A stretch of DNA of 64,000 nt from Flagellimonas aequoris (GTDB lineage Bacteria; Bacteroidota; Bacteroidia; Flavobacteriales; Flavobacteriaceae), in assembly GCF_003584165.1 (NCBI RefSeq), contig NZ_QXFJ01000030.1, positions 806,001 to 870,000 of the forward strand, given 5' to 3'. The notes below the pieces were generated by a model. That model was given only the letters and a program-made list of their open reading frames with translations, was not told the origin of the DNA and did no database searches. This document shows positions 43,064-55,373 of this stretch, in pieces; positions within the stretch are counted from its first letter, which is position 1; each line of letters begins with the position of its first letter. The position numbers and the translations under genes are program-made.

Positions 43064-43107
43064 GGCGAGGTAGCTCAGCTGGTTAGAGCGTCGGATTCAT
43101 AACCCGG
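43064..43107 (+). pseudogene. truncated tRNA-Met (5' half), left attachment site of the element
   Basis: GGCGAGG acceptor 5' strand, D arm (GCTC/GAGC) and the anticodon-arm start TCGGATTCATAACCC match tRNA-Met, but after the CCCGG-like part the sequence changes to GGGGACAAAATTG, so the variable loop, T arm and acceptor 3' strand are missing. It shares the 13-nt core GGATTCATAACCC with the intact copy. The most likely reading is the host gene's 5' half left by integration in the anticodon arm. Confidence 0.75.
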
Positions 43108-43134: not shown

Positions 43135-43208
43135 GGCGAGGTAGCTCAGGTGGTTAGAGCGTTGGATTCATAACCCAGAGGTCGGGGGTTCAAGTCCCCC
43201 TCTCGCTA
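43135..43208 (+). tRNA. tRNA-Met (anticodon CAT), probably element-borne replacement
   Basis: A complete 74-nt cloverleaf: acceptor GGCGAGG/TCTCGCT, D arm GCTC/GAGC, anticodon loop TTCATAA, T arm GGGGG-TTCAAGT-CCCCC. It differs from the truncated copy at two positions (G for C in the D loop, T for C in the anticodon stem) and has no promoter of its own in the 27 nt between the copies. CCA is not encoded. CAT could also be read as initiator or Ile2; the structure fits elongator Met. Confidence 0.92.
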
Positions 43209-43222
43209 CTTTTTGATGATAA

Positions 43223-43628: not shown

Positions 43629-45323
43629 TTATTCCTTATCGTCATTTCTTTCAAAATTTCTTTTTATTGGTAATCTCCAAAAAACCGGAAATGGTTGTCC
43701 ACGAAAGTGCCTACTGGATATATGTGGAATTAGATGAAACCCAGACGTGTAAAATTCAAATTTGTCTTCTTTAATAAACAGATCTACTTCTTCGGTTATT
43801 TCTTTTTTATACTCCTTAATTTCATCATATATGTTAATTGAATGCTTTAAAGTTCCTTCACCTTGACTGTAGTTTTTAGCACAAAAAAACCTTTCAACAT
43901 CCTCTGTACAGAACCAAATCTGCAAGTTTACTTTTGGGAAATTATCATTTATTAATGAACGTATTTCTTTATATAATTCTTCATCTTCAAATAGAACCGA
44001 ATACTCCAACAATATTATCAAAATCGTCGAAGAGTCTATTTCCGAATCAATATCTCCATTATGGATGTCAACCAGTTTGTCAAAATTGGTTCGAAACAAA
44101 GGGAAACGTTTATAAATCACAAAGTTATTATGAAAGGCAACAACCATACTTCTTATCCAATTACATGCATCATCTTTTTTACCCGTAAAATAAAGGAGCT
44201 GCAAGGCCAGAGCAATTTCGATGCAATGCTCATCATATTCGGGATAACTCAACGGTGGATTACTGTGAACAAATGATGAAAGGGCATTCGAAACGGATTC
44301 TGCACTTTTATAAAATTTCTGCGATTCTTCTTCTTTTGTAGCCCAATATTTAAATCGAAATTCTTGGATTTCCGCCAAGCCAATAGTTGCAAGTATTCCA
44401 AGATGCTCCCATGAATTTAAGCTATATTCAAGATAGTTTTTTGAATATCTGTAGATACTGTGTTTTGTTTGATAATGTTGCACCACCTTATTGAAAAAAG
44501 TAATTCCTATTCTTCTCTTTAAGCCGTAGAACATATAAAACTCTTGCTTTACATATGCTTTTTCAAGGTGCCCATTTTTAAATATCCAATCCCAACAAAG
44601 AAGAATACAGCGTTCACTCGCTAACACGGCAGGCTTAAGGTTCTTTAAATCTTGGGACCATTTGAACAAAATATTCAGACAGAGCCTTACCAGCCTGAGT
44701 TTTTTAAGAATCTTCTGTTTTTGCTTTGCATCTTTACGCAATATTTGGTCAAGCAATTCATAAAAATGCGAGAGATTATAATCCGGAACATCTAAAAATG
44801 CAAGCGTTTTTCTTAATAAAGATTGATATTCCGCAGGGAACAATTTTTCATTATCAAGGTAGGTATCCAACATTGAAGCAATTCTAGTGGTACCCCAAAA
44901 ATCATAGGTTCTTTTTTTATTGGAATTCGAGTCTATGTACTGCTTCCAATTAATCTGAACATTCTGTACTATTTCGCCATTAGTCGCAACGACTATTTTA
45001 ACTGGTAGTTTATTATACTTTTTTTCAAGTAAAGAGTTAATATAAACATCTTTGATTTCATTTAGGGAAGGTCTGGTTGAGTTTACCTTACCATCCCAAT
45101 TCGTTCGGTTTAGATTGCCTTGTTTAACTACAAAAAGAAACACTTTGGTTTTATGGTCTTCTGGGTCTTTGCCAACAGCAGCTATATCAACTCCATGCTG
45201 TCTTCCTTTCTGCGGAATGGATATGGGTATTATTTTCATTCCAATCAATAAATCGACAATAAGAGTATCGAGCTCTCCATCTTCCTTTAAAAGAGTGATA
45301 TACTCACTTAAAACAAACCTCAT
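43629..45323 (-). CDS. PD-(D/E)xK-like nuclease domain protein, second gene of a two-gene system
   Basis: 564 residues. The N-terminal 150 residues look like a restriction-endonuclease fold: KGRQHGVDIAAVG (Asp46) and, about 20 residues on, VFLFVVKQGNLNRTNWDG (Lys67). This is the G-x-D...x-x-K spacing of PD-(D/E)xK nucleases, but the usual Glu/Gln two before the Lys is Val. The other 400 residues are alpha-helical repeats without a recognised family. It overlaps the upstream gene by ATGA (45320-45323), so the two proteins are made together. Its AT-rich composition contrasts with the core genome. The call as a defence nuclease is inference; a degraded or regulatory nuclease fold is possible. 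Confidence 0.6.
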   Translation of the reverse strand: MRFVLSEYITLLKEDGELDTLIVDLLIGMKIIPISIPQKGRQHGVDIAAVGKDPEDHKTKVFLFVVKQGNLNRTNWDGKVNSTRPSLNEIKDVYINSLLEKKYNKLPVKIVVATNGEIVQNVQINWKQYIDSNSNKKRTYDFWGTTRIASMLDTYLDNEKLFPAEYQSLLRKTLAFLDVPDYNLSHFYELLDQILRKDAKQKQKILKKLRLVRLCLNILFKWSQDLKNLKPAVLASERCILLCWDWIFKNGHLEKAYVKQEFYMFYGLKRRIGITFFNKVVQHYQTKHSIYRYSKNYLEYSLNSWEHLGILATIGLAEIQEFRFKYWATKEEESQKFYKSAESVSNALSSFVHSNPPLSYPEYDEHCIEIALALQLLYFTGKKDDACNWIRSMVVAFHNNFVIYKRFPLFRTNFDKLVDIHNGDIDSEIDSSTILIILLEYSVLFEDEELYKEIRSLINDNFPKVNLQIWFCTEDVERFFCAKNYSQGEGTLKHSINIYDEIKEYKKEITEEVDLFIKEDKFEFYTSGFHLIPHISSRHFRGQPFPVFWRLPIKRNFERNDDKE

Positions 45324-46912
45324 TTTCTTCGTTTAAAACCTTGACTTTCCAATCTTAATTGAGCTTGACTCACGGGGTCTATGTACTCTCCTCTTGGCAT
45401 TTCGGTACTATGGGATATCAACTTTGGTTCCATATGGGCTGAGTATTCCCCTTTGAATTTTGCGAAAGAAGTCTTTCCGCTCCTAAAATGTAATGTAGTA
45501 AACAAACTTGAAAATGAACCGCCACTTTTTTCACTATCATCGTATGATTTACTGAATTTTTTGCTTTGTAGCCTATTCATATAATTTAATCGAACCTCAG
45601 ATGGATTAAATTCTTTTAAGGTTTCAAGTTTTGAGTAGGCATCATAATACTTCTCCCCATCTTTAATTATCTGATTAATGATTTTCTTGAGCTTTGTTGG
45701 AGCACTCTTTTTCTTTTCATTTAAGAAATCTATAGTTGAGTAATAATTGAATATTAAATGGTTAACGAAAATATCGCTCATGAAGTTTACGGTCGGTTTA
45801 TCGTCATGTTTGGCCTCGATAATTGAAAATAACAACGAAGTTGACAGCTCTTTTTCATAAACAAAACCAATTATTTTTCTTGTAACATACTCGATGTCAT
45901 AAAGACTATAATCTTTCAAAAGTTTTTTGTCTAGTTCTAATGTGTACACATTTCTATAACTCAATTCTCTCAAAATACCGAAGATTGCTAATTGGTAATT
46001 AATCGAATCGTCATTGAGCCATTCGGTAACCAAGGTCTGAAAATATTTGGGTTTCAAATTGTGGATTTCATCGAAAACAGTTTGAAGAAGCTTCGTGTTG
46101 TTGGCGTTTTCAGTCCTAAAGCCAACCCATGCATTCAAAAATTTGGTTACAAGGGACAAGTTATCTTTAACCTTCAGTTGAAGTAAGTAAGCGAGAGAAT
46201 TGTAAGCTCCAGTAAGCTTAATATCCATTGATACTAGAGCATCCAATATTAAGCTATAAAAATCCTTCTCAGATTCAATATCGATTTGATGATCCAATAT
46301 ATGCAATAGCTGAACTTTAATCTCATTTTCTTCCTTGCACAAAAGAGCTCGGATATGCGCATCCGCATTGGGAATATGTTTTCTTTGATTACCACAAGAG
46401 CTTACGACACCAGCTAAAACTCTAACCGAAGTATTTTCATCCTCAATTAACTCGGAAAATCTACCATCCACCTCAATGTTAAAACTCTCTAACTTAGGTT
46501 CGGACAAATCCATATAATAGATGGATGCAATACCTTGGGCTTTTTTTATTGAGGTCGCTTCATCAAATAATTTAAGTACTTCTTTTGTTGCCCATTTGTA
46601 GTCTTTCTTAAATACCCCTGAAACGACTCTTGCCAGCACACCTTGTATTTTCTCATTTGAATTTATACTTACTGATTCATAGAGTGACTTTCCAAATTTT
46701 AAATCCTTACTACAAGCATTATCAATTCCCTGATAAAATTCTGATGCCATAAAATCATTTTCGATTTTCGACAACAAAATTGGTAGTGAATCTATCAGCT
46801 TTGTAATTTCCACCTTTTCAATATTTTGACAAAAATCACGATATGGCACCCAAAAGTCTCGACCTTCTAATCCTGTGGAAAGATTGTCAAGAAATTGATT
46901 TACTTCATTCAT
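45320..46912 (-). CDS. alpha-helical (HEAT-like) repeat protein, first gene of a two-gene system
   Basis: 530 residues, almost all amphipathic helices in pairs of about 35-45 residues (such as LVTKFLNAWVGFRTENANNTKLLQTVFDEI and YFQTLVTEWLNDDSINYQLAIFGILREL), resembling HEAT/ARM scaffolds. No catalytic motif is visible. A flexible, Ser/Lys-rich C-terminal tail (about 450-530) ends in basic residues (GFKRRK). It precedes the nuclease-like gene with a 4-base overlap. It could be the sensor or scaffold partner of the nuclease. There is no clear promoter box in the AT-rich 400 bp upstream. No family is recognised. Confidence 0.6.
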   Translation of the reverse strand: MNEVNQFLDNLSTGLEGRDFWVPYRDFCQNIEKVEITKLIDSLPILLSKIENDFMASEFYQGIDNACSKDLKFGKSLYESVSINSNEKIQGVLARVVSGVFKKDYKWATKEVLKLFDEATSIKKAQGIASIYYMDLSEPKLESFNIEVDGRFSELIEDENTSVRVLAGVVSSCGNQRKHIPNADAHIRALLCKEENEIKVQLLHILDHQIDIESEKDFYSLILDALVSMDIKLTGAYNSLAYLLQLKVKDNLSLVTKFLNAWVGFRTENANNTKLLQTVFDEIHNLKPKYFQTLVTEWLNDDSINYQLAIFGILRELSYRNVYTLELDKKLLKDYSLYDIEYVTRKIIGFVYEKELSTSLLFSIIEAKHDDKPTVNFMSDIFVNHLIFNYYSTIDFLNEKKKSAPTKLKKIINQIIKDGEKYYDAYSKLETLKEFNPSEVRLNYMNRLQSKKFSKSYDDSEKSGGSFSSLFTTLHFRSGKTSFAKFKGEYSAHMEPKLISHSTEMPRGEYIDPVSQAQLRLESQGFKRRK

Positions 46913-47323: not shown

Positions 47324-48139
47324 TTGAAAGACACGGACAATAAACTTCCATCAGATAGAGAGACATTCGAAAAGTTTAGAGGTGCCATGGCCTATATAGA
47401 AGTAGTTAAGCCCAATGGCGACATTGGGATTGGGTCAGCGTTTCATATTGGCGATGGAATTTTAGTTACAGCTCGTCATGTAGTCGAAAATTGCGAAATA
47501 ACAAAAATCGGAACTACAGAAAGTTATAATGTACCTGATGATAATGGGAACGTGTACATACACAATGTTGAAGGTAGGTTTCGAGCCGTTGCCCCACAAG
47601 AACTTACCATGTTGGCAGGACCTTATTATCACCCCGATTCTTCTATAGACGTTGCAGCTCTAATTACAAAACCCAATGATTGCAAAACGGCATTTCTAGG
47701 ATTGTATGTGGACAATTGGATTCATGACAGCGATTACCTTTTAAAAAAAACCGTCATCCTGGGTTATCCACCAATTCCTTTTTCAAAAGAGCCAAAACTA
47801 TTCGCGGCCAGTGCTGAGATTAACTCGATAATCAAAAAATACGTTGGTAAACATATTCATTATATCATATCTGCCATGCCAAGAGGTGGATTTAGCGGTG
47901 GCTTATGTCTTTTAGACAATCATATTTTAGGATTAATTGTAGAGTCGTTGACCTCGGATAATAAAGAAACTGAACTTGGATTCATGTCGGTTTTGTCCCT
48001 TGAACCAATATATAAACTGCTGACCCACAATGATATTTACCCAGCTGAGCAAATTGAATATTATTTCAAATCAGAGGATCGAGACAAGTTTAAAGAAGCT
48101 TGGAAAAAGGGGTTTTGGAAAAGCAATAAACTGGGTTAA
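47324..48139 (+). CDS. trypsin-like serine protease
   Basis: A 271-residue chymotrypsin-fold protease with the whole triad in order: His52 (LVTARHVVEN), Asp109 (DSSIDVAAL), Ser191 (PRGGFSGGLC). There is no signal peptide, so it should act in the cytoplasm, which is unusual for this fold but known for protease-based defence and caspase-like systems. It begins at TTG 47324, giving an N-terminal helix before the first strand; the next ATG (47387) would cut into the barrel. A zinc/HNH-like protein and a small unknown follow on the same strand, so they are probably co-expressed. Confidence 0.8.
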   Translation: MKDTDNKLPSDRETFEKFRGAMAYIEVVKPNGDIGIGSAFHIGDGILVTARHVVENCEITKIGTTESYNVPDDNGNVYIHNVEGRFRAVAPQELTMLAGPYYHPDSSIDVAALITKPNDCKTAFLGLYVDNWIHDSDYLLKKTVILGYPPIPFSKEPKLFAASAEINSIIKKYVGKHIHYIISAMPRGGFSGGLCLLDNHILGLIVESLTSDNKETELGFMSVLSLEPIYKLLTHNDIYPAEQIEYYFKSEDRDKFKEAWKKGFWKSNKLG

Positions 48140-48156
48140 ACTTTAAAATCATATTT

Positions 48157-48921
48157 ATGGCCATATGCAAACTATGTCTGAAAGATAGGCAACTTAGGCA
48201 ATCACATATCATTCCTGAATTTATGTATTCTGGAATTTACGATAAAAACCCTAAACGCTTTTATGAAATAAGAATTGATGATAATGAAGCTAAAAGTAGA
48301 ATTCAGCAAAAGGGCCAGCGAGAGAATTTACTCTGTGGAGAATGTGAATCTAAACTTAGTTTATATGAAAAGTATGCCGATGAAAATCTTTATGGCAAAA
48401 ATCAACAAGGGGAGGCTCGATTGATTAATCAATCAATGGACAGAGAGAGAAAAGTATTTTTATACGAATTTGAAGCATTTGATTATGACCGGATGAAACT
48501 CTTTTTGGATTCGTTATTATGGAGACTTTTGGTTTCCGAAACAATTTACACACCAGATTATGGCGAAGAAATCAAAGAACAACTTAGAAATTCAATTTAT
48601 ACCGAAACACCGTTGGACCCAGCTGAATTTCCGTGTTTGGTTCATTCTATCATGACAGCTCCGGGAAAGATGTTGAAAGGATTCATTTTATCCCCCTTAG
48701 AGAGGAAATACCAAAATCGAACAATTTTGAGTGTTCTTATTGATGGCTTTGAATTCAATTTTTACATGACGGACAATTTACCTGAAGATGAAATCATTCC
48801 ATTTCTTCAGAGAAACGGGGAGTTAAAGGTATTGGGTAGGTTGATTTATGATATGCCAGAATTAGTTGAAATTGTTAAGCAGAGAATGGATCACCTGAGA
48901 GAAAGGTTACATGAAAAATAG
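48157..48921 (+). CDS. CxxC...H...CxxC HNH-like zinc protein
   Basis: 254 residues. Cys4/Cys7 (ICKLC), His17 (QSHIIPEF) and Cys60/Cys63 (LLCGECE) form an HNH-like or treble-clef zinc site, and the SHIIP sequence resembles the His of HNH nucleases. The typical catalytic second His/Asn is not clear, so nuclease activity is uncertain. The remaining 180 residues are mixed alpha/beta with no known match (FEAFDYDRMKLFLDSLLWRLLVSE). It lies 17 bp after the protease gene and 12 bp before a small unknown. It could be the protease's target, a regulator, or a nuclease effector. Confidence 0.65.
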   Translation: MAICKLCLKDRQLRQSHIIPEFMYSGIYDKNPKRFYEIRIDDNEAKSRIQQKGQRENLLCGECESKLSLYEKYADENLYGKNQQGEARLINQSMDRERKVFLYEFEAFDYDRMKLFLDSLLWRLLVSETIYTPDYGEEIKEQLRNSIYTETPLDPAEFPCLVHSIMTAPGKMLKGFILSPLERKYQNRTILSVLIDGFEFNFYMTDNLPEDEIIPFLQRNGELKVLGRLIYDMPELVEIVKQRMDHLRERLHEK

Positions 48922-48933
48922 AATTTACCAATT

Positions 48934-49350
48934 ATGAATAATGAAATAAATAAAAAGAAGAGAAAGTATACGAATTTGATAAAAACCGAAATGATGCGAG
49001 GAGGTGGGCTTAAATTCAGTTTTTTTCAACTTGAAGTTTTTAAGGTTTTATTGACAGAGTTTGGCTATAATTATATCATGATAGGTGGCAAGGGTAAGTA
49101 TTTAAAATCTGCGCCAGAAGGTTATGAAATAGTTCGTTTTCACAAACTTCAGGATAGTTTTACGGACTACTTGAGGTATCATTTTGATCGGTCCAGTATT
49201 CCTGAAGGGATTTCATATGAAGACTTCTTGAACAAATATTACCAATCTAGGCCTATTAATCAGCATTATGCAAAATCTTTTTTTCAAGCAGAGAACAAAC
49301 TGGACGAAAATGATTTTATCTTAGAAAATGAATTTTTAAAGTTCAAGTGA
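48934..49350 (+). CDS. hypothetical protein, third gene of the protease operon
   Basis: A 138-residue protein with no recognised family. The N-terminus is basic (MNNEINKKKRKYTNLIKTEM), followed by aromatic-rich alpha/beta sequence (FFQLEVFKVLLTEFGYNYIMIGGKGKYL). It starts 12 bp after the CxxC protein, so it shares the operon. Codon and base use match the AT-rich cargo. Its function is not known. Confidence 0.6.
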   Translation: MNNEINKKKRKYTNLIKTEMMRGGGLKFSFFQLEVFKVLLTEFGYNYIMIGGKGKYLKSAPEGYEIVRFHKLQDSFTDYLRYHFDRSSIPEGISYEDFLNKYYQSRPINQHYAKSFFQAENKLDENDFILENEFLKFK

Positions 49351-49796: not shown

Positions 49797-50129
49797 ATGA
49801 GGCGGGCCAAGATATTATTTAAGGGAGAAGAAGCGGGCATACTTACCCAGTATGACGATGGAAGCTTTTCGTATCGCTACCATGACCAATGGCTTGGCGA
49901 TTCGGGAAAGCCGTCCATAAGCCTAACGTTGCCCAAAACCGATCAGGAGTACCGTTCGGAACATCTGTTCCCATTTTTTTATAATATGCTTCCAGAGGGA
50001 ACAAACAAACAGGTAGTGTGCAGACATATGAAGATAGACCAAAACGATTACTTTGGCCTGTTGCTGACAACGGCACGTTATGATACGATCGGTGCCATAA
50101 CCGTAAAGAAAATTGAGCAACCGATATGA
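49797..50129 (+). CDS. HipS-like antitoxin (HipA N-terminal subdomain)
   Basis: A 110-residue protein matching the N-subdomain 1 of HipA (AKILFKGEEAGILTQYDDGSFSYRYHDQWLG... and the SLTLPKTD segment). As a separate gene between the HTH protein and the kinase it matches the HipBST organisation, where the small HipS is the actual antitoxin. It overlaps the kinase gene by ATGA. Split HipA is common in Bacteroidota, so HipS as antitoxin here is inference. Confidence 0.85.
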   Translation: MRRAKILFKGEEAGILTQYDDGSFSYRYHDQWLGDSGKPSISLTLPKTDQEYRSEHLFPFFYNMLPEGTNKQVVCRHMKIDQNDYFGLLLTTARYDTIGAITVKKIEQPI

Positions 50130-51112
50130 GCTTACCGATGATAAAATATTGTCCCGGCACTTTGGCAGAGGGGTATGAGACCTATAGCACGACCTGCTTG
50201 AGAAGGGTATTTGATGGCAGAAAGGTAAACCATATATTGCCTTACGATTCCCCGGCCAGCAACGAAGCTACGGATGAACTCTTTGTTGAGAACCGAAAAA
50301 GGATTTCGATTTCCGGGGTACAGGAAAAATTTTCCGTCCTTTTGGAGAAAAATAAACTTCGGCTTATTAACGAAGGGGAGCAAGGGACCTATATATTAAA
50401 ACCAATTCCCGGTGCGGGTAAAAATCCTGACCAGATGCCCGCCAATGAGCATTTGACGATGCAGATCGCACGACAGGTATTCGATATCGAGACCGCCGAA
50501 AATGCGCTCATATTTTTTAAGGATGGCACACCAGCCTACATTACCAAGCGATTTGATGTAAAGAAAGGCGGTGGGAAACTTGCCAAAGAGGATTTTGCTT
50601 CCCTGGCGGGAAGAACTCCCCAGACCCATGGGGAACACTATAAATATTCGGGCAGTTATCTTGAGTTGTTCGAACTTATGAAAAAGTACCTGCCTGCCTA
50701 TCAATTGGAGGCACCGAAACTTTTCCGACTACTCGTCTTCAATTATCTTTTTTCCAATGGGGATGCCCATTTTAAAAATTTCTCGTTATTGGAAACAGAA
50801 TTGGGAGATTTCAGGTTAAGTCCTGCCTATGACCTGCTCAATACACGAATGCATATAGAAGATTCCGATTTTGCGTTAGATGACGGCCTGTTACCTAAGA
50901 ACTTGTCCAAAGGCAAGGTTATGCAACAATTTCTTTCGCTTGCCGAACATGCAAAAATTGGCCAAGGCCAATTGGATGGGGTTTTGGAGAAATTGCTGTC
51001 GAATTCTGAAGAGGTCGAAAAACTAATAGACGCTTCCTATCTAAGCGATACGTCCAAACGAAATTATTTACAATCGTATCAAACAAGGCTTAAAAAACTA
51101 AATCGAAAGTAA
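50126..51112 (+). CDS. HipT-like serine/threonine kinase toxin
   Basis: A 328-residue HipA-type kinase. The autophosphorylation loop has RISISGVQEKFS with the SIS motif at residues 61-63, as in HipT, where two Ser regulate activity. The catalytic loop NYLFSNGDAHFKN and metal-binding SPAYDLLN (Asp) complete the kinase. HipA/HipT phosphorylate aminoacyl-tRNA synthetases and cause growth arrest. Length and gene order match HipT. It is the third gene of the hip operon and overlaps HipS by four bases. Confidence 0.9.
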   Translation: MSLPMIKYCPGTLAEGYETYSTTCLRRVFDGRKVNHILPYDSPASNEATDELFVENRKRISISGVQEKFSVLLEKNKLRLINEGEQGTYILKPIPGAGKNPDQMPANEHLTMQIARQVFDIETAENALIFFKDGTPAYITKRFDVKKGGGKLAKEDFASLAGRTPQTHGEHYKYSGSYLELFELMKKYLPAYQLEAPKLFRLLVFNYLFSNGDAHFKNFSLLETELGDFRLSPAYDLLNTRMHIEDSDFALDDGLLPKNLSKGKVMQQFLSLAEHAKIGQGQLDGVLEKLLSNSEEVEKLIDASYLSDTSKRNYLQSYQTRLKKLNRK

Positions 51113-52550: not shown

Positions 52551-52959
52551 TTTGACCTCTCCTTGTTAGTTGTTTTCTACCTTCAAGATACACCCATACC
52601 CGTTGGAATCCACGGAAAAACAGGCGAAAATCCACCCTTTTCTTCTTTCCCCCTATCCACAAAAAAAGCGCCCGATAGGGCGCAAGATTACTAGTAATAA
52701 TAACATCTACTTTTTTAACGAAAATAAACCTAGGATGATTTCTATCGTAGGAGTCAAAATTTAAGATTGCATGGCATATTAAGAGCATTATTTCTCAAAT
52801 AAGACGAATAATTAAGAATCATCGGATTTTAAGGTTTATTTGGTAAGATGGGTAAGATGCACCAACTAGGTAATAAGTTTTTCACAACGCTTATATGTAC
52901 GATAATTCCGCACAATAATGATATATTTACAACTTAACCCACTAACCAACAATACCAAA
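52551..52959. other. intergenic region between RadC-like and NdpA-like genes
   Basis: About 400 bp without a supportable gene. It holds the AAGGAGAGG Shine-Dalgarno-like sequence of the RadC gene near 52555-52563 and, at the right end, a TATATTTAC promoter-like box (about 52921-52929) serving the divergent NdpA-like gene. I see no repeat. Confidence 0.5.
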
Positions 52960-53979
52960 ATGGAAATAAAAAATATCTTTCTTCATCATATTGATGTAGC
53001 AAATAGCTTAATTACAGAAATAAAAGTAATAGAAGATTCAGCAAACTTAAACACCTATATCGAATCCTTGGTTAAAGACATCCTCGATAATCCCAATAGA
53101 CGGTTTTATAATTGGAAAGATGGGGATACCGAAGTTAAAAATTCACTTGATCCCTTAAAGGAAATTGGAAATGAGAGTGAAAAATATGCCCTGAACAATG
53201 CAAAGAGACTGCTCGAAAAAGAAAGTAAAGCGCAAGAACAAGTCAATAAAATGAATGTTGAAATGCAAAAGGGTAGCTTACTTCATCTTTCTATTGAAAG
53301 CGATGGAACTCACAAAACGATTATTTGCAAAGTTGAGCACGATGAAGTAATGAATGAGGTAAATTTTGAATATATAAGAGGCCTTAATACAAGAAAAAAA
53401 TTATTTAAAGCAATCTTAATCTATTACAACTCAAATGGTCAAATAGAGCATAATTATGTACACGATAAAAATTCCTCTAAATATTGGTGGGATGATTTTT
53501 TGGAGTTAGAGCCAATAATTACGGATGATGACAATACTGAAAATTCACTGAATGAAATAGATAAATGTTTGACGAGATATCGGAAGAAATATTATGTGGA
53601 TTACTTGATTTTGAGAAATTCATTTCTAGGTCATTTTAGAAATAGGGATACACTTAATTTTTCCGATTTGGTAAACGATGTTTTTAAAAACTACACTCCA
53701 CTGAACAAACAATTCCCAAAAGACAGACTTTTAGCCTCAATTAATAAATTGCCTGAAAAGAACCTGTTCGACACCACATTTAATATCGCAAAAAACAAAA
53801 TCAATAAACGAAAAAAAACGAGTATTAGACTTGCAAGTAATCTATTTCTCAATATTGATGATTTTGTGGAAAATTTAAAAAACCTGATCGACTTGGAGCA
53901 AAAGAACGGAAATAAGTACGTTCGTATTAAGTCCGAGGATGGATATGATAAATTGGAAGATTTATTGAATAAATTATGA
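52960..53979 (+). CDS. NdpA/YejK-like nucleoid-associated protein, first gene of a two-gene system
   Basis: About 339 residues. The N-terminus IKNIFLHHIDVANSLITEIKVI and the overall layout (a conserved first strand and helix, then a long mixed region, YIRGLNTRKKLFKAI...KYWWDDFLELEP) resemble the 37-kDa nucleoid-associated family. The ATG at 52960 follows a TATATTTAC box; the longer frame start (52918) would lie inside that box. It ends with an ATGA overlap with a membrane protein gene, so DNA binding is probably coupled to a membrane-bound partner. Family resemblance is by eye only. Confidence 0.6.
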   Translation: MEIKNIFLHHIDVANSLITEIKVIEDSANLNTYIESLVKDILDNPNRRFYNWKDGDTEVKNSLDPLKEIGNESEKYALNNAKRLLEKESKAQEQVNKMNVEMQKGSLLHLSIESDGTHKTIICKVEHDEVMNEVNFEYIRGLNTRKKLFKAILIYYNSNGQIEHNYVHDKNSSKYWWDDFLELEPIITDDDNTENSLNEIDKCLTRYRKKYYVDYLILRNSFLGHFRNRDTLNFSDLVNDVFKNYTPLNKQFPKDRLLASINKLPEKNLFDTTFNIAKNKINKRKKTSIRLASNLFLNIDDFVENLKNLIDLEQKNGNKYVRIKSEDGYDKLEDLLNKL

Positions 53980-55373
53980 TTGATGCTGTTTACAAATTGT
54001 TTGATATAAAGAAGGACATCCATTTGATTGACAATTTCATTTCCTATGAGAGGGAATTTTTATCAGAGGTCAATCTAAATGAGAATAGTAAGTTTGATTT
54101 AGCTAAGTATAATGAGTTTAATGGCGAAATTACCAAATTTGGCTATGACTGGACTTTTGAGATTGAGGAACTTAATTACTCAATAAGTCAAAACAGTTAT
54201 TCGGAAATTGACTTTTTGGATTTTATTGATGGAGAAGAAATTACAGTAGTTCTGAAAATTTTCAAAAATAGTAGTCAAATTGTCATTTTTAATGAGGATA
54301 AATTCAATGAATTCCTTTCCTCTGAAAACTTAATAAATATTCTCAAACACTTTAACACTAGACAAGAAGGCATCGTTTTTTACAAATCGGATAATAAATT
54401 TACTTGCGCCAATCATTTTTTAGGATTTAATGAGACATTAAAAAATACATCGAGAATTAATTTTGACCTGAGTGCTCAATGTAATTTTACTAACTATTCA
54501 GAATTTAAGTATTCTCCGGAAGACTTCAATTTATTTGGAAATCCCTTGGATGATAAAATTCTGCTTCTCATGGACAAGCTAAGGTTTGTTTTCCTAATAG
54601 TCTACATTTTTGATAGCACGGAGATTTCGGATAACTCCATGAAAATTAAAATAAGTGGTTTCAAAACATTCAGGTATAGCTTGAATTTTTCAAGCTTGGA
54701 TATTAGTTCACTAAAGATTTATCAAAGGATTTACGATTGGATATACTCCGAAAAAAACAAGATAGAAGATAAATTAGGTATAGCGAGAAATATTCTTTCT
54801 ATGTATTTGGTTGATAAGGATTTAAATATTGAAAATGACGTTCTTGCCTCTATTCTTTCAGCAAATAACACCTATATCAAGGGAAACATAGGTAAATATG
54901 TAGATATAAGAAACAAAGTGCACAACCAATTAGAGTATGTTTCTGAAAGGGTTAATAAATCGTTAGAAGGGTTCTTTAATAATTTTCAAAAATCAATATT
55001 TGTTTTTATTTCATTCTATCTGTCAGTCTTTGTTTTCAAGACTTATAGGCAGCCTGACTTGAGTTCCGTTTTCAATAAAGAGACAACCTTAATGGCTCTA
55101 GGCCTTTTGGTAATTTCTTTTATATTCATGATATTCTCGAACTGGGTCCTAAATTTAGAAGAAAATAGGATCGGCAAAAAGTATGAGGATATAAAGAAAA
55201 GAGCTTTAGACTTGTTGGTAAAGGATGACGTTGATAAGCTTCTGGATAATGACAGAGAATTCAAAGCAGAACTAATATTTCTAAACAAACGTAGATGGCT
55301 TTATATATTTCTTTGGGGCCTTACTTTGCTTGTTTTTATTATCGTTCTTTGTTTTACTTCAGATTTTATATAA
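53976..55373 (+). CDS. soluble-domain plus three-TM membrane protein, second gene of a two-gene system
   Basis: 465 residues. The first 330 residues are soluble alpha/beta with no recognised family (IDGEEITVVLKIFKNSSQIVIFN...). Three membrane helices follow at about 340-356 (SIFVFISFYLSVFVF), 371-393 (TLMALGLLVISFIFMIFSNWV) and 441-461 (WLYIFLWGLTLLVFIIVL). The layout is that of a membrane-located effector paired with the DNA-associated NdpA-like protein, with which it overlaps by four bases. A similar division (DNA-sensing partner plus membrane partner) exists in the Kiwa defence system, but no homology to Kiwa is claimed. Confidence 0.6.
   Translation: MIDAVYKLFDIKKDIHLIDNFISYEREFLSEVNLNENSKFDLAKYNEFNGEITKFGYDWTFEIEELNYSISQNSYSEIDFLDFIDGEEITVVLKIFKNSSQIVIFNEDKFNEFLSSENLINILKHFNTRQEGIVFYKSDNKFTCANHFLGFNETLKNTSRINFDLSAQCNFTNYSEFKYSPEDFNLFGNPLDDKILLLMDKLRFVFLIVYIFDSTEISDNSMKIKISGFKTFRYSLNFSSLDISSLKIYQRIYDWIYSEKNKIEDKLGIARNILSMYLVDKDLNIENDVLASILSANNTYIKGNIGKYVDIRNKVHNQLEYVSERVNKSLEGFFNNFQKSIFVFISFYLSVFVFKTYRQPDLSSVFNKETTLMALGLLVISFIFMIFSNWVLNLEENRIGKKYEDIKKRALDLLVKDDVDKLLDNDREFKAELIFLNKRRWLYIFLWGLTLLVFIIVLCFTSDFI

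Follow-up and report, generated by a model that had tools for sequence, protein, structure and literature searches.

An Olokun-type oloA–oloB gene pair with a predicted variant-motif nuclease fold, carried near one end of a mobile element in Flagellimonas aequoris

The stretch of DNA analysed here (the window) comprises 64,000 nucleotides of the genome of Flagellimonas aequoris (family Flavobacteriaceae; NCBI RefSeq assembly GCF_003584165.1, contig NZ_QXFJ01000030.1, positions 806,001 to 870,000 of the forward strand) and carries two adjacent genes, oloA and oloB, which are identified from their sequences as an ordinary copy of the known two-gene Olokun anti-phage system. An earlier note on the window, made from the sequence alone, had described two AT-rich genes overlapping by ATGA, and both open reading frames (ORFs) are indeed present on the (-) strand, with a G+C content of 0.33–0.35 over the pair (four 1-kb bins) compared with 0.41–0.45 over the 8 kb on its left (eight such bins). 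The ATGA overlap of the oloA stop with the oloB start may couple the translation of the two genes. OloA matches the PADLOC profile PDLC03925 (E 3.1e-69, 232.8 bits) with residues 8–523 on profile positions 71–589 of 596, and OloB matches PDLC03926 (E 3.2e-145, 483.3 bits) with residues 2–552 on profile positions 3–554 of 556. Both matches, the position of oloA directly upstream of oloB and their common strand are the features by which Olokun is recognised. Since PADLOC names both proteins, together and in Olokun order, the pair is assigned to Olokun; since almost the full length of each protein is matched, and by profiles that belong to the same named two-gene system, the assignment goes beyond chance. 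The earlier note had taken the pair for a candidate undescribed defence system. The PADLOC defence profiles agree with it on the kind of system; its claim to novelty was wrong, because PADLOC names Olokun and the relevant passage of PMC10121019 counts Olokun among the described systems by way of its reference 7. A false new system is thereby removed and the pair is given its name.

Compared with Olokun as represented by PDLC03925 and PDLC03926, the pair is alike in both proteins, gene order, strand and coupling, and the OloB profile is covered almost completely; this OloA is a 530-amino-acid form without the first 70 profile positions. A longer OloA starting upstream of position 46912 is rejected, since stop codons close all three frames, and no in-frame extension of oloA was found there. 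The original report of Olokun is said to be that of Millman et al. in 2022. Neither Pfam nor NCBIfam gives a significant family for the 530-residue OloA or the 564-residue OloB, and among the papers found for the names OloA and OloB, judged by their titles, none uses them in the defence sense. Gabija and other nuclease-containing defence systems have the defence context in common with the pair, whereas the Olokun pair lacks an ATPase or a helicase. The positions of the genes, of the codons discussed below and of the tRNA-Met features are given in Table 1.

Table 1. Positions of the Olokun genes, OloB active-site codons and tRNA-Met features in the window.
Feature	Position	Strand	Description	Basis
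oloA	45320..46912	(-)	predicted HEAT-like helical-repeat protein, 530 amino acids, first gene of the pair	ORF, PADLOC, model
oloB	43629..45323	(-)	predicted N-terminal PD-(D/E)xK-fold domain (~residues 1-160) and C-terminal helical domain, 564 amino acids, second gene	ORF, PADLOC, model
ATGA shared by the oloA stop and the oloB start	45320..45323	(-)		sequence
Asp46 codon of OloB	45186..45188	(-)	invariant in 116/116 alignment rows	position computed from ORF start 45323
Lys67 codon of OloB	45123..45125	(-)	invariant in 116/116 alignment rows	position computed from ORF start 45323
Glu89 codon of OloB	45057..45059	(-)	candidate relocated carboxylate	position computed from ORF start 45323
5' half of host tRNA-Met	43064..43105	(+)	marks the element's left end; att core GGATTCATAACCCGG extends to ~43107	
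complete tRNA-Met	43135..43209	(+)	element-borne, just inside the left end	ARAGORN

The host genome has one Olokun copy. The OloB profile (E 0.001) matches in 18 of 397 genomes of the family, 14 of them, including the host genome, over at least 500 of the 556 positions, as well as in 3 of 395 genomes of the class, 9 of 395 of the phylum and 1 of 16 of the family of genome G138; control genomes gave no match in any of the family, class, phylum and G138-family searches (0/14 each). With OloB as tblastn query, matches were found in 34 plasmid records out of 72,556; the 50,697 phage records gave no match. Scanning genome contigs with the single protein as query found no relative; scans with alignments gave 4 loci in viral contigs and, taking the best 80 of 100 relatives, 80 in genome contigs. 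Judged by the titles of their records, these 84 loci belong to Bacteroidota, Pseudomonadota, Cyanobacteria, Bacillota and further phyla. The nearest among the best 80 of 100 is that of Winogradskyella ursingii (67% for OloB, 44% for OloA). The pair stays together in other genomes: an OloA homologue lies directly upstream of OloB in 84/84 loci, with OloA split into two ORFs in L072 and L076 and OloB in L108 and L112. G138 and G686 have divergent pairs, which PADLOC likewise identifies as OloA and OloB. The identities of OloA and OloB correlate with r of 0.82–0.91 in four A-against-B comparisons over 72 non-redundant pairs, and none of 200 permutations reaches r in any of them. This co-variation leads to the conclusion that oloA and oloB travel as one unit. 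Nonsynonymous divergence (dN) from the three nearest relatives is 0.27–0.28 for OloB and 0.51–0.54 for OloA; because synonymous divergence (dS) is saturated in 5/6 comparisons, no dN/dS ratio is given. Left out were L007 of G705, an OloB profile match that was not recovered with a second OloB profile, and the partial matches L009 and L010.

Inspection of 14 of the 34 plasmid matches, 12 of them annotated, places a defence-suggestive gene within 6 kb of Olokun in 6/12 (L019, L021, L022, L026, L027 and L029), the annotations being NACHT, AbiEii, DNA methyltransferase, TIR/SIR2 and DncV-like. Gabija (GajA, E 5.2e-153; GajB, E 6.6e-206; PADLOC) adjoins Olokun in one Flavobacteriaceae genome, G525 (L011). 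The same region of G525 (L011, 11131-17862) also encodes a 399-residue protein that looks by eye like a PD-(D/E)xK nuclease (IDIYSPKLKIGIQAKKK) and has no PADLOC match. On a Burkholderia ubonensis plasmid (L032, 6001-9039), OloB is interrupted: a gene annotated as an IS3 transposase separates its two pieces.

The earlier note's description of a helical scaffold joined to a restriction-endonuclease-like core agrees with structural models of the two proteins. The AlphaFold2 model of OloB, built from 65 sequences, has a mean predicted local distance difference test score (pLDDT) of 91.2 and a predicted template modelling score of 0.84. Helices at residues 2–11 and 17–28 are followed by strands at 31–35, 47–52 and 59–67, a helix at 83–98, a strand at 108–114, a helix at 120–133, a strand at 138–143 and a helix at 145–155, and then by helices to the end; this is the element order of the PD-(D/E)xK fold. 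Within residues 1–161, the model can be aligned to MspJI (Z 9.6, 131 residues, 3.6 Å), AF1548 (Z 9.6, 110 residues, 2.8 Å) and FokI (Z 9.2, 142 residues, 3.7 Å), and an N-terminal part of somewhat longer range aligns to EcoT38I (Z 8.2, 135 residues, 4.1 Å). As in MspJI, FokI and AF1548, the second strand of OloB begins with an Asp and the third ends with a Lys. OloB residues 1–160 are predicted by this model to have the PD-(D/E)xK fold. The helical remainder resembles helical-repeat and 14-3-3 chains (Z 8–9.7). The OloB profile has no match among PDB sequences up to E 10, and none of the 65 OloB members has a Pfam family at E 0.01.

Asp46 in QHGVDIAAV and Lys67 in FLFVVKQGN are where the earlier note had placed them. 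Glu14, Asp19, Asp46 and Lys67 are invariant, at first in 85 OloB sequences and then in 116/116 rows of an alignment that includes near-duplicates and counts one gene twice, as L008 and L015. Position 65, the site of the ExK Glu, is Ser in 44 of these rows, Thr in 29, Val in 23, Ala in 6, Cys in 6, Glu in 4, Leu in 2 and Ile in 2. This OloB has Val65, with no Glu or Gln two residues before Lys67, and so departs from the canonical ExK motif. Because 112/116 OloB rows are without the ExK Glu, Val65 is normal for Olokun, and by this alignment the missing Glu is a family trait and not a loss in this copy alone. The four rows with Glu65 (L013, L016, L133 and L135) form one clade (support 1.0) with a canonical D...ExK. 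The doubt that the earlier note attached to this residue is thereby partly answered, and OloB is a putative nuclease. Since the Asp and the Lys are kept and the acidic residue is not, OloB 1–160 is considered a variant-motif domain of the PD-(D/E)xK fold and not a canonical member.

The ExK carboxylate is probably supplied from elsewhere, perhaps by residue 89 or by Glu14 in the first helix. Glu89 sits in the model helix 83–98, after the catalytic strands. Position 89 is Glu in 100 of the 116 rows, Asp in 7, Gln in 6 (L027, L125–L128 and L131), Lys in 2, which are one gene fetched twice, and Met in 1. A first count of Glu or Asp at this position in 85/85 sequences is partly an artefact, because the search used two peptide patterns and this Glu is part of one of them; the 59 of 84 loci that matched the other pattern have Glu in 53 and Asp in 6. 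According to the passage concerned in PMC551604, Cfr10I and NgoMIV have the Lys in place and the carboxylate elsewhere in the chain and are active restriction enzymes. Like these 'PD-XXK-E' enzymes, as they are described there, OloB keeps the Lys, lacks the ExK carboxylate and has an acidic residue in the following helix; it differs in that it has no sequence match to them and in that residue 89 is Gln in 6/116 rows and Lys or Met in 3/116. The evidence for residue 89 as the replacement carboxylate is mixed, and this role is a possible one.

The OloA model, built from 59 sequences, has a mean pLDDT of 90.6 and consists of a helical solenoid at residues 2–462, a stretch of low confidence at 464–478 and a short C-terminal segment. 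Among known structures the model comes closest to chains of the PP2A scaffold and of AP-3 (Z 12.6, root-mean-square deviations of 13.6 and 16.0 Å). A profile of the 59 OloA sequences finds HEAT/ARM proteins in the PDB, both designed ones and natural ones (best E 1.2e-18), and Pfam HEAT_2 is found in 11/59 members; this OloA copy alone gives no match to Pfam HEAT. By profile and model together, OloA is a predicted HEAT-like solenoid. The basic tail mentioned in the earlier note is present as a C-terminal KRRK, but 0/14 aligned relatives end in this way. OloA is 527–536 residues long in the flavobacterial loci L037–L046, L048–L050, L075 and L091 and reaches ~716 residues in other lineages. Median pairwise identity falls from 0.44 in the nuclease part of OloB to 0.24 in its helical part, 0.22 in OloA 331–530 and 0.16 in OloA 1–330, and the best-kept OloA blocks in a per-20-residue profile are 341–360, 381–400, 421–440, 461–480 and 501–520. 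On two Klebsiella plasmids (L030 and L031, 5096-5998), a 300-residue OloA that matches the C-terminal part of the profile only (327–574 or 345–574 of 585) stands alongside a full-length OloB. The variability pattern and the short Klebsiella OloA fit a variable sensing solenoid with a conserved C-terminal part that may meet OloB.

A passage of a 2026 review lists the mechanism of Olokun as unknown (PMC12926258), another source, in the part cited, describes the system as lacking thorough characterisation (PMC12592470), and a table in PMC10855318 places it under nuclease activity. The present analysis makes it fairly likely that, in this Olokun copy, OloB is a metal-dependent nuclease controlled by OloA and that OloA is the infection sensor. 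OloB would be held in check by OloA or assembled on it. The variable N-terminal solenoid of OloA would recognise a phage product or a phage-induced state, and the more conserved C-terminal part would dock on OloB, pass the signal and switch the nuclease on. Activated OloB might then cut phage DNA, or nucleic acid of the cell in an abortive response. A more detailed version is tentative, its chances being rather below even: in the main form, OloB would be an active nuclease with its second carboxylate relocated to residue 89 or Glu14, a minor clade would keep ExK, OloA 1–330 would be the HEAT solenoid sensor and the C-terminal part of OloA the trigger. If this is true, Olokun has two active-site types under one architecture.

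Several observations weigh against the reading of OloB as a nuclease controlled by OloA. The ExK Glu is absent from nearly all OloB rows, this copy included, and therefore nuclease activity is not assured. Among 14 rows found by profile, with no peptide pattern involved, position 89 is Glu in 7, Asp in 1, Gln in 5 and Lys in 1. A clean exchange between Glu65 and Glu89 was looked for and not found: L013 fits (Glu65, Met89), and L016, L133 and L135 have both. A Foldseek search with the OloB model finds nothing that reaches E 0.001. For OloA as for OloB, the helical matches lie in a Z range that the tool calls non-specific, and those of OloB may reflect just a common arrangement. Conservation is the only basis on which OloA is proposed as the sensor and its C-terminal part as the docking site.

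An unlikely alternative is that OloA and OloB form a restriction-type system that reads modified or unmodified phage DNA through OloA or the helical domain of OloB, and does not sense a phage protein. MspJI, a modification-dependent restriction enzyme, is among the nearest solved folds for OloB 1–161, and the C-terminal helical domain of OloB could bind DNA. However, the OloB fold does not point to MspJI, because the alignments to FokI and AF1548 are just as good; the Pfam search of the 65 OloB members revealed no DNA-reader domain, and the HEAT-like half is the most variable part of OloA, which is at least as compatible with a protein partner that changes fast. It is still less probable that the PD-(D/E)xK domain of OloB has no catalytic activity, binds nucleic acid without cutting it and protects by binding, blocking or scaffolding with OloA as its partner. 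The frequent replacement of the ExK Glu by Ser, Thr or Val in the 112 rows is what such a domain would show, but the invariance of Asp46, Lys67 and Glu14 would be needless for binding only, the clade of L013, L016, L133 and L135 keeps a textbook D...ExK, and there are active restriction enzymes whose carboxylate is relocated (PMC551604). That the pair is an undescribed defence system, for which the lack of a Pfam family for OloB and of an NCBIfam family for either protein might speak, since it leaves them nameless outside the defence library, is hardly credible in view of the PADLOC matches to both proteins and the naming of Olokun in the literature. OloB as an OloA-controlled nuclease is the preferred reading. 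For work on Olokun, the analysis offers candidate activity residues, a candidate trigger part of OloA and OloB proteins with and without ExK that can be compared as natural variants.

As judged from the sequence of the site, a large mobile element is integrated in a tRNA-Met gene, and the Olokun pair sits at its left end. The earlier note had placed the pair just inside the left end of such an element, and this is borne out by the split of the host tRNA-Met, which is intact in G944. The 3' half of the host tRNA-Met lies on another contig (G000:C7:47198-47243), and the 15-base core GGATTCATAACCCGG is common to both halves. The intact tRNA-Met of G1095 agrees with the two halves in every base (42/42 and 46/46). 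The unoccupied site is seen in G944, of the same genus, where an intact tRNA-Met lies between the same two flanking genes and is directly followed by the gene found to the right of the far end of the element. The element spans at least 2 contigs. Read by eye, a tyrosine integrase gene lies beside its far end (L123, 8820-10037), with conjugation genes downstream (L121).

Further cargo follows in the window. On the opposite strand and adjoining oloA, the region 47324-49350 encodes a trypsin-like peptidase (PF13365 at E 5e-5, under the curated cutoff, and weak PADLOC protease matches) and, after it, two proteins without any family in PADLOC, Pfam or NCBIfam; this region is possibly a second cargo module. 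At 49797-51112, HipA is encoded by two overlapping genes, for Couple_hipA (110 residues) and HipA_C (328 residues). The most AT-rich cargo, with a G+C content of 0.29–0.31, is at 52918-55373, where two overlapping genes encode proteins of 353 and 465 residues that have no Pfam family at E 0.01, and the end of the 465-residue protein looks by eye like membrane helices.

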